Assembly (NCBI GenBank): GCA_030619885.1 | Contig: JAUXAN010000009.1 | Span: forward strand, 1-62,518 | Length of the DNA stretch: 62,518 bases | Direction: 5' to 3' | DNA from: a bacterium | GTDB taxonomy: Bacteria; Hydrothermota; DG-26; JAUXAN01 | In this document: positions 14,472 through 42,911 of the stretch, one piece after another | Layout of the letters: every line of letters begins with the position of its first letter | Numbering within the stretch: position 1 is the first letter of the stretch | The notes under the pieces: generated by a model | Told to the model about the DNA's origin: nothing | Database searches by the model: none | Seen by the model: the letters and a program-made list of their open reading frames with translations, nothing else | Position numbers and translations under genes: made by a program

Positions 14472-15434
14472 ATGGCTCGTGGTTTAAGAATACAATTTTC
14501 GGGTGCGTTTTATCATATTATAACCCGTGGAAATGAAAAGAGACCAATTTTCATAGATGATTCTGATAGGAAAAAGTATCTGGAAATCATTGGGAATTAC
14601 AAAAGGGACTTTGGTTTTTACCTGTACTGTTATACATTGATGACAAACCATAATCACCTTTTGATAGAAACACCCATGGGGAATATTTCCAGAATTATGC
14701 TTTGCGTAAATACAAACTATGCAGTCTATTTCAATAGACGGCATAATCGGGTAGGGCATCTATTTCAAGGAAGGTACAAGAGCATCGTTGTAGATAAGGA
14801 GGCTTACCTGTTGCGGTTACTGAGGTATATCCATTTAAATCCAGTGAGAGCGAAAATGGTAAGGAGCCCCAAAGAATATAAATGGAGCAGCCACAGGGTA
14901 TATATTAGTGGTAGAGATACATCAGGATTGATAGACACAGAGCCAGTTTTAGGGCGTTTTGGGAATACTAAAGAGATGCAAATTACAGCTTACAGAGACT
15001 TCGTAGAATCTGAAATAGGAAGTGAACACCCTGGATTTGAGGTAAAAGAAGGGCAATTTTTAGGTGATGACGATTTTATAAATAATGTAAAGAAGAATAG
15101 AATCCGAGACATTACTGAGAATAAAGAGATTCTACAGAGGTTTATGACTTTTGACGAGATATTGAGTGGTGTGGCTCGATTTTACAAGACAGAGGAATCT
15201 GAGATAAGATACTCAAGGGGGCACAAAAGTGTGCTCCTTCGCTACATAACGATATGGTTTGCAAGGAAATGGACAAATATGACCCTAAAAGATATAGGGG
15301 AGTGTTTTGGAGGGATGCCACATTCCGGCGTCTTCTTTGGTATTAAGAGAGTAGAGAGGGAGATGTGTACTAATAAAGAGTTTGCAAAAAATATCCAACG
15401 ATTAGCCAAAGTTTTGACAAAATTGAAGGGTTGA
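14472..15434 (+). CDS. REP-associated tyrosine transposase (RAYT, Y1/TnpA-REP) with DnaA-like C-terminal domain
   Basis: A single-strand DNA transposase of the HUH/Y1 class, 320 residues. It begins MARGLRIQFSGAFYHIITRG; the HUH motif is in MTNHNHLLIETP (about residue 57), and the catalytic Tyr is in LRYIHLNPVRAKMV (about residue 116), followed by EYKWSSH, all typical of RAYTs. Residues about 215-310 resemble the DnaA domain IV helix-turn-helix (TLKDIGECFGGMPHSGVFFG), an arrangement found in some transposases of this group. It is intact and has a strong leaderless promoter. Known RAYTs bind and help spread palindromic REP sequences, which matters here because the window is full of palindromes. 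A broken relative lies at 55804-55912. Confidence 0.95.
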   Translation: MARGLRIQFSGAFYHIITRGNEKRPIFIDDSDRKKYLEIIGNYKRDFGFYLYCYTLMTNHNHLLIETPMGNISRIMLCVNTNYAVYFNRRHNRVGHLFQGRYKSIVVDKEAYLLRLLRYIHLNPVRAKMVRSPKEYKWSSHRVYISGRDTSGLIDTEPVLGRFGNTKEMQITAYRDFVESEIGSEHPGFEVKEGQFLGDDDFINNVKKNRIRDITENKEILQRFMTFDEILSGVARFYKTEESEIRYSRGHKSVLLRYITIWFARKWTNMTLKDIGECFGGMPHSGVFFGIKRVEREMCTNKEFAKNIQRLAKVLTKLKG

Positions 15435-40852: not shown

Positions 40853-40875
40853 TATTATTCGGGGACGCAGATGAA

Positions 40876-40904
40876 CCCCGTTAGATGTTTACTATCTAAC
40901 GGGG
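40876..40904. repeat. 29-bp palindrome CCCCGTTAGAT..ATCTAACGGGG with TGAA duplication
   Basis: Stem CCCCGTTAGAT/ATCTAACGGGG with a seven-base loop. It is flanked by TGAA on both sides (40872-40875, 40905-40908). It interrupts a dispersed repeat that would otherwise read GACGCAGATGAACGCAGATT. Confidence 0.85.
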
Positions 40905-41012
40905 TGAACGCAGATTGACAGGATTTTAACTATAAAGATATAATCAATTTCCCTTTCTCCTGTGCTTTAATCTGCGGATATCTGCGTCCTATTAAAATAT
41001 TTTTGATCTGAA

Positions 41013-42623
41013 TTGCGACCAAGAAGTTATATAGCAGCACTTGTTGTATTGGACGGATGTAATATTGAATGGCTAAAGAAAGCCAATACCACGAATATTG
41101 ACAAAATCATTGAAACAGGCGTAGGAACCAGGCATGCCTATTCTTGGGCAACCACAAGGGTTGCCCCTACTAAATTTAAATCGGTCTGCCCCTCAGCAAC
41201 CTTTACAGGGCACTGCTCCATTCTTACCGGAGAATATCCCTGTGTGCATGGGATCGTTGGGAACTCTTTTTATGATAGAAGAAGTGAGAATTTGATAGAC
41301 TTCGATTCTTACGATGTTAATGAATTCATAGAAACAGAAACTCTCTATGAAAAGGTGAAAGGAACTACAGCAGCTGTTGGAGAACCGATAACCCGTGGGG
41401 CTGATATCGTTGTCAAAAAAACTGAGGTCCAGCACAGACCTGTATGGAAACAGGATGAATATGCCACAAAGATGGCATTGAAGATTATTGCAGAACACTC
41501 TCCAGTATTCATCGTTGTAAACTTTCCCGGGGTCGATTCAATAGGCGAAACATACGGTATCCACAGCAATGAAGCGATAAGGGTGATAGAAAATAGCGAT
41601 GTTTTGCTCGGAAAAATTGAAACTTTTCTGAATAAAAATTATAATGACCATCTTTTTGTAATAGTTGCTGACCACGGTATGACATATGCGGGTGAAAATA
41701 TAAACTTGGCTAAAATGATGAAAGAGTTGAAAACAATAATATGCCCGTCCCATAGATTTGCTCATATTTACTTGGAGAAAGTAAGGAACAGGCATGCCTG
41801 TTCCCTACTGCTGAGATCCGATAATCGAATAGAGAAAGTTTTGAATCCGAGAGAATGTAAGAATATGAAGTTAGCACATCACAGAACAGGCGACATAGTC
41901 GTTGTTGCTAAAGAAGGCTATGAACTGGGCAGTAAAATTTTGAAGGGAAGTCATGGAGGAGTGAGCCCCAATGAGATGGATGTGCCATTCATAGTTAATA
42001 AACCCGAGTATTATGACATAACCAAAGATTCGAACATTACCGATGTTTTTAAGGTGGTGATGCGATATATAGTGGAGAAGGAGGCAGAAGCCCTTGTTAA
42101 AAGTAGATTGAAGGATGCAGATCCTGCACACAACTACAGCCACACCGAGAGGGTCTTACGAAAGGCTACCAAATTAGCAATCTCTCACAATACAGATATA
42201 GAGATAGTGCGTCTTGCCTGTATCTTCCATGATGCTGAAAGGGGAAGTGGAGTAAAGGATCATCCTGAGAAGGGTGCTAAACTGGCTGAAGATTTTCTTA
42301 CCTCGAAAGGCTATTACAAAGACAAAGTTAAGAAAATAAAATCGGCTATACTCCGACACCATACGAAAAATCCTGACAGAATAAATGCCATTGAAGAAAA
42401 GATACTGTGGGATGCTGATAAGTTGGATGCTCTGGGTATTATAGGTTTTGTAAGGTGTGTGCAGGAAGCAGGATACAATCAAGATTCTATAAGTAGTGCT
42501 GTAGAGCATTTCAAAAAAGATACAGAAGAATTCAGAGATACAATGCACTTTAAAGAGACTCGAAAGTTATCTCAAAAGATGAGCAGAATAGCAGAGCAAT
42601 TTATAGATGAAATGGAAGATTGA
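41013..42623 (+). CDS. Alkaline-phosphatase-superfamily phosphodiesterase fused to HD hydrolase
   Basis: A 536-residue two-domain enzyme. Residues about 1-350 are a nucleotide pyrophosphatase/phosphodiesterase-type domain: LDGCNIEWLKKANTTNIDKI (metal Asp), SVCPSATFTGHCSILTG (nucleophile Ser/Thr), VVNFPGVDSIGETYG, VIVADHGM and GSHGG (metal ligands). Residues about 365-536 are an HD domain: DPAHNYSHTERVLRKA, ACIFHDAERG (HD), AILRHHTK, LWDADKLDALG. Such a fusion suggests stepwise phosphate-ester hydrolysis, substrate unknown. Two stretches, GTRHAYSWATTRVAPT and VRNRHACSLLL, are encoded by palindromes (41121-41170, 41781-41808) and look like in-frame insertions. The TTG start lacks a good RBS. 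The stop codon lies in TTGACCCC. Confidence 0.85.
   Translation: MRPRSYIAALVVLDGCNIEWLKKANTTNIDKIIETGVGTRHAYSWATTRVAPTKFKSVCPSATFTGHCSILTGEYPCVHGIVGNSFYDRRSENLIDFDSYDVNEFIETETLYEKVKGTTAAVGEPITRGADIVVKKTEVQHRPVWKQDEYATKMALKIIAEHSPVFIVVNFPGVDSIGETYGIHSNEAIRVIENSDVLLGKIETFLNKNYNDHLFVIVADHGMTYAGENINLAKMMKELKTIICPSHRFAHIYLEKVRNRHACSLLLRSDNRIEKVLNPRECKNMKLAHHRTGDIVVVAKEGYELGSKILKGSHGGVSPNEMDVPFIVNKPEYYDITKDSNITDVFKVVMRYIVEKEAEALVKSRLKDADPAHNYSHTERVLRKATKLAISHNTDIEIVRLACIFHDAERGSGVKDHPEKGAKLAEDFLTSKGYYKDKVKKIKSAILRHHTKNPDRINAIEEKILWDADKLDALGIIGFVRCVQEAGYNQDSISSAVEHFKKDTEEFRDTMHFKETRKLSQKMSRIAEQFIDEMED
41121..41170. repeat. Two adjoining palindromes inside the phosphodiesterase gene
   Basis: GTAGGAACCAGGCATGCC with an imperfect mate, then GGGCAACC-ACAAG-GGTTGCCC (41146-41166) with trailing CTAC. 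The pair is about 48-50 bases and stays in frame; it falls between two blocks that are normally about adjacent in this family. Confidence 0.75.
41781..41808. repeat. Palindrome GGAACAGGCATGCCTGTTCC inside the phosphodiesterase gene
   Basis: A perfect 20-bp palindrome at 41785-41804 with GTAA and CTAC on its sides, related to the first element at 41121. It encodes VRNRHACSLL. Confidence 0.8.
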
Positions 42624-42699: not shown

Positions 42700-42911
42700 T
42701 TTACAGTCGCTCGTTTAAGTTAACCCAGCACTTATGCATAGGTGCTGGGTTAATCGGTTACGATGCCCGCCCCGTTAGAAAACAAGCACTTCTAACGGGG
42801 CCCGTTTCGTCCTTCGGTGATGGAATCCGTCTTTTTAGATCGTTCTTCACATCCGTAACTGTTAACCGCTCCACGATACGAGCCTCGTCATCGTCAAACG
42901 ATTAACGAAAC
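42700..42911 (+). repeat. Dispersed structured element, copy 2, carrying two nested palindromes
   Basis: It starts TTTACAGTCGCTCGTTTAAG and ends CAAACGATTAACGAAAC. Compared with copies at 38695 and 60867 it holds two insertions. One is a 26-bp palindrome (42724-42749, core CACTTATGCATAGGTG) between TTAA duplicates; the other is a 31-bp palindrome (42770-42800, CCCCGTTAGA..TCTAACGGGG) between CCCG duplicates. With flanking dispersed repeats it fills the 450-base gap up to the tRNA-Ser gene; no gene is seen there. Confidence 0.85.

Follow-up and report, generated by a model that had tools for sequence, protein, structure and literature searches.

Within the window (the whole stretch of DNA analysed, 62,518 nucleotides long), an open reading frame (ORF) with a TTG start codon encodes a 536-residue phosphodiesterase-HD fusion protein (Table 1), whose Pfam matches are Phosphodiest (PF01663) at residues 9-312 (2.9e-31) and HD (PF01966) at residues 375-473 (1.2e-11). 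Alignment showed that D14, T63, D175, D220, H221 and H314 are conserved. Residue 179 is Glu, while nearly all homologues carry a His at this position, which is probably a metal ligand of a D-x-x-x-H motif. No orthologue of the fusion gene came up in searches of 147 genomes of the phylum, of genome contigs (whole-protein scan) or of viral sequences, and plasmids gave distant matches only; a 50-residue query retrieved 14 loci, all of them distant and without the HD part. The AlphaFold model of the protein has a mean pLDDT of 55.8. Palindromes of other families flank the gene on both sides (40875-40905, 42720-42753 and 42769-42801); those that bracket it read CCCCGTTAGA...TCTAACGGGG and TTAACCCAGCAC...GTGCTGGGTTAA.

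Table 1. The phosphodiesterase-HD gene and the putative repetitive extragenic palindromic sequences (REPs) inside it.
Feature	Coordinates	Strand	Basis
Type I phosphodiesterase/nucleotide pyrophosphatase (alkaline phosphatase superfamily)-HD fusion gene	41013..42623	+	ORF and Pfam
50-nt head-to-head composite of two GTAG REPs, residues 37-53	41121..41170	.	GTAG...CTAC ends
Left-hand unit of the composite, a GGAACAGGCATGCCTGTTCC palindrome copy that has diverged	41121..41143	.	
Right-hand unit of the composite, one GTAGGGGCAACCCTTGTGGTTGCCC REP with GTAG tag, 8-bp stem and loop	41146..41170	-	
28-nt REP palindrome, residues 257-266	41781..41808	.	27 of 28 nt identical to the genome consensus

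The composite in the first part of the gene reads GTAGGAACCAGGCATGCCTATTC-TT-GGGCAACCACAAGGGTTGCCCCTAC and encodes V-GTRHAYSWATTRVAP-T. The third palindrome, extended to positions 41780-41809, has 15-bp arms with one mismatch and encodes VRNRHACSLL. The first-pass annotation placed these residues exactly on palindromes, which is correct within a margin of 1-2 nt; with lengths of 50 and 28 nt, neither unit is a multiple of three. In 300 synonymous-codon shuffles of the gene, with protein sequence and codon usage left unchanged, the longest palindrome arm reached 11 bp, so the 15-bp arms are not a product of coding constraint. The layout of palindrome, TT and palindrome is also found at G000:C46 (L098:1339), with several base differences; since it recurs there between different flanks, the 50-nt composite is probably one unit rather than the result of two independent events.

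REPs are non-autonomous mobile repeats whose movement is attributed to REP-associated tyrosine transposases (RAYTs). The third palindrome is a copy of GTAGGGAACAGGCATGCCTGTTCCCTAC, which is dispersed over the 2.46-Mb genome (G000). Based on the stretches around the matches, we localized the GTAGGGAACAGGCATGCCTGTTCCCTAC palindrome at 41 distinct sites, 16 of them identical over all 28 nt, whereas the reversed-pattern control had no matches in the same genome. A looser GTAG palindrome pattern gave 28 matches against 1 in its control. The GTAGGGGCAACCCTTGTGGTTGCCC unit, a GTAG REP of textbook form, has 8 copies in the genome within 3 mismatches, and a sister palindrome family, GTAGGGAACCCGTACGGGTTCCCTAC, is also present. 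In the consensus of both GTAGGGAACAGGCATGCCTGTTCCCTAC and GTAGGGGCAACCCTTGTGGTTGCCC, the GTAG tag is terminal on a palindrome of 20-40 nt; single units and head-to-head dimers occur, and the 28-mer carries GTAG on the outside at both ends. The 28-mer core was found in only 3 of the 147 genomes, a patchy distribution of the kind that a mobile repeat would show. Many intergenic copies (e.g., L003, L025, L095, L102, L100 and L027) lie directly after the host repeat CCGCAGATT(TA), which suggests that this sequence is a preferred or shared target repeat of the intergenic copies; one pattern search for an empty copy of a host repeat gave no match. When the junctions were inspected by eye for target-site duplications, two-base matches were observed at about 4 of 20 sites; this is close to chance, and thus we do not claim a target-site duplication.

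About 11 of the 41 sites, in 10 genes, are copies read in frame with sequence supporting coding, two of them in the phosphodiesterase-HD gene itself. The others include an HdrA/GltD-like oxidoreductase (in the linker between the Fer4_20 and FAD domains), a UvrD/PcrA helicase, a glycerate kinase, an FHA-GAF-cyclase (in a linker), an L,D-transpeptidase, a DUF3160 protein, the C-terminal end of a sigma-70-family factor and two genes in which the copy lies just after an apparent signal peptide. The remaining 30 or so sites are not confidently coding, and six of these sites fall in ORFs that are doubtful or have a doubtful start codon. Since ORFs cover approximately 90 percent of the window (greedy count), genes are avoided by the repeat, yet they are not free of it. 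Two reading frames of the 28-mer are open (VGNRHACSL and REQACLFP) and the third runs into a TAG stop; none of the 11 in-frame copies uses the latter. Two sister-family copies are in frame, in a heptosyltransferase-like gene and in a 640-aa ORF. Of ten copies examined in two further genomes, one is in frame in a gene with a T9SS tail and one overlaps a doubtful 92-aa ORF. Additionally, a second repeat, TTTGTCATTCTGAGCGTAGCGAAGAATCT (peptide CHSERSEES), or variants of it lie in frame near the C-terminus of T9SS-tail genes in genome G026 (L191:13997-14431, L190:8727-9080 and L195:14328-14741); a second type of repeat has thus apparently made its way into genes of this phylum.

The genome has 14 Y1_Tnp matches. 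The 157-aa transposase of G000:C37 scores 87.9 bits, against a cut-off of 80, with the model NF047646 (REP-associated tyrosine transposase). Inverted GTAG palindromes at 739(+) and 1278(-) flank its ORF (L045:766-1239); one of them directly adjoins the ORF end, and the other is about 14 nt away from the ORF start. This REPtron layout, a RAYT between REPs, is known for RAYTs (PMC2817692, PMC3733652). The 28-mer is absent from all 13 Y1_Tnp loci examined, and the palindromes of the C37 REPtron belong to another family; its link to the 28-mer is therefore only inferred. In the window, position 2354 (-) carries a copy of GTAGTGAACGGTCTTCAGACCGTTCAT, the REP flanking the C37 transposase, and positions 14472-15434 encode a Y1 transposase domain fused to a DnaA C-terminal helix-turn-helix domain, with no family-A palindromes adjoining. 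The C37 palindrome at L045:739-765 overlaps the 3′ end of a gene (L045:441-782) that resembles a ribosome hibernation factor, and the palindrome appears to supply some of its C-terminal residues.

The palindromic residues had been proposed to be additions to the protein, a proposal that stands for the composite and falls for the third palindrome. Between the conserved Gly36 and Pro60, the fusion protein has 23 residues; this interval measures 10-11 residues in 16 homologues, which come from several phyla, and 6 in a further seven (locus L085, a spurious frame, was excluded). Relative to the 16 distant homologues, the composite at 41121 thus adds some 12-13 residues; over most of this insert the AlphaFold confidence is below 50. 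Between Tyr253 and Gly293, the fusion protein has 39 residues and its homologues 45-62; since these are as long or longer, the third palindrome adds nothing, and the comparison indicates that the palindrome at 41781 stands in place of homologous residues. Residues 258-268 are modelled as a helix with a pLDDT of about 62-75, a placement that is only suggestive because the model as a whole is weak.

Small net changes in length were also observed in other genes. The copy in UvrD corresponds to two more residues than in an orthologue with 56 percent identity, and PcrA lacks 14 residues there. The HdrA/GltD-like copy corresponds to three to four additional residues relative to the nearest homologues, the glycerate kinase copy to 0, 0, 5, 5 and 12 relative to five homologues, and the heptosyltransferase-like copy aligns without a gap. 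The L,D-transpeptidase homologues found in the PDB and in plasmids do not cover the insert. In G026, the T9SS sorting domain with the REP is three residues shorter than the closest paralogue found and equal in length to several others; where this paralogue reads GTT CCT CCT AAT ACA CTA TTA ACT AAC CTC CAA TTA ACT, the REP copy reads GTA GGG AAC AGG CAT GCC TGT TCC TTG CGC.

The palindromes are very probably GTAG-type REPs that were mobilised, we infer, by a RAYT, and whose genic copies are survivors with a compensating change in the target. The RAYT would cut and join single-stranded DNA at the GTAG-tagged hairpin. A clean entry of 28 or 50 nt would shift the frame; because these are not in-frame lengths, the genic copies would be the fraction of events with a compensating loss or gain of target sequence. 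Among these compensated events, those fitting the fold would persist, occupying linkers, turns or segments of variable length and often replacing native residues. Such frame-filtered survival would account for copies being in frame with no need for a special coding property, and the small net length changes are most simply put down to target loss. The earlier view of insertions that kept the frame is borne out, the inserted units being repeats. For a single palindrome, a clean in-frame entry would be possible if the unit truly inserted were 24 nt, placed beside a pre-existing GTAG. Two such events probably took place in the phosphodiesterase-HD gene, the more diverged composite probably being older than the near-perfect single unit; judging from the conserved positions, most catalytic residues are retained despite both. 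The predicted peptides encoded by the repeats are probably without a selected function.

Imprecise replacement could instead be the normal mode of REP integration, a comparable length of target being displaced, for example when single-stranded REP DNA is joined at microhomologies. We regard this as possible, although on the whole unlikely. It would fit the shorter T9SS domain of G026 and the little or no net change in the glycerate kinase, UvrD, HdrA/GltD-like and heptosyltransferase genes. Nevertheless, genes show only events that are in frame and compatible with the fold, i.e., survivors; the homologues share about 45-65 percent identity and the sites fall in variable loops; and the absence of 14 residues from PcrA at the UvrD site and the addition made by the composite at 41121 do not conform to it. 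With similar reserve, we consider that REPs may colonise coding sequences by displacing an equal stretch of codons and leaving protein length unchanged, and it is likewise doubtful that the decapeptide VGNRHACSLL or REQACLFP would take over a native turn, strand or helix segment in this way.

A system like the Rickettsia palindromic elements (RPEs) proper, that is, a protein-targeting element selected for genes and adding exposed peptide loops, would account for in-frame copies in many unrelated genes; we consider it very unlikely, since most copies lie outside genes, which are avoided given the ORF coverage, little or no net length is gained from the third palindrome and several other copies, and the sequence is GTAG-tagged, whereas RPE-4 and RPE-6 are CGTC repeats (PMC3733652). 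Slightly less probable still is that selection maintains the palindromes for a regulatory or structural role (gyrase sites or RNA hairpins) and that they are not mobile debris: such roles have been proposed or shown for REPs in Escherichia coli (PMC3733652), and the copies are palindromic in mRNA from either strand, but the host genes are scattered and unrelated and the distribution is restricted to 3 of 147 genomes. Chance or codon-driven palindromes, or a decaying pseudogene, can practically be dismissed, as the shuffles never reached the observed arms, the 536-codon frame is open with conserved catalytic residues, and the 41 dispersed copies refute such an origin.

The preferred reading, GTAG-type REPs with compensated genic survivors, has close precedents. 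Di Nocera et al. (2013) reported REPs of the GTAG and CGTC types within genes of several phyla; more than half of the intragenic REPs were dimers or groups encoding 20-30 residues, many were in repair genes such as uvrA, and some genes were hit twice (PMC3733652). In that study, head-to-head dimers predominated among GTAG REPs, and CGTC-related intragenic repeats of Rickettsia conorii were equated with RPE-4 and RPE-6 (PMC3733652). The repeats reported here share with the GTAG REPs of that study the tag, the palindromic stem and the head-to-head dimers, as well as a mainly extragenic location with an in-frame minority that includes DNA-repair genes and two sites in one gene. They differ in their occurrence in an uncultivated phylum and in that several genic copies have little or no net added length. 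Against the REP assignment itself, a textbook REP has a loop and one tag, whereas the 28-mer has no loop, is almost perfectly palindromic and carries a tag at each end; the same features set it apart from the GTAG REPs of PMC3733652, with which it was compared by description. As in REPIN/RAYT systems (PMC2817692, PMC3116915), palindromes occur in inverted pairs and a RAYT flanked by REPs is present in the same genome; unlike in those systems, no RAYT was found adjoining the 28-mer family, and its roughly 41 copies are fewer than in many classic systems.

The likeness to the RPEs drawn by the first-pass annotation is apt, in that RPE-1, RPE-4 and RPE-6 are also palindromic repeats in frame in many unrelated genes, as are the 11 sites in 10 unrelated genes here; on the description given in PMC3733652, RPE-1 is longer and, unlike the RPEs, the repeats reported here lie mostly outside genes. 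Rickettsia is not the only precedent: GTAG REPs inside genes have already been described in other phyla (PMC3733652). In the present genome, the copies often seem to replace native residues instead of extending them. Our analysis adds an uncultivated phylum to those with gene-colonising REPs, here with about one quarter of the copies in genes, a high share, and raises a testable question: how can elements of 28 or 50 nt, neither divisible by three, enter genes and leave the frame intact? Loss of target sequence during integration is the apparent answer.
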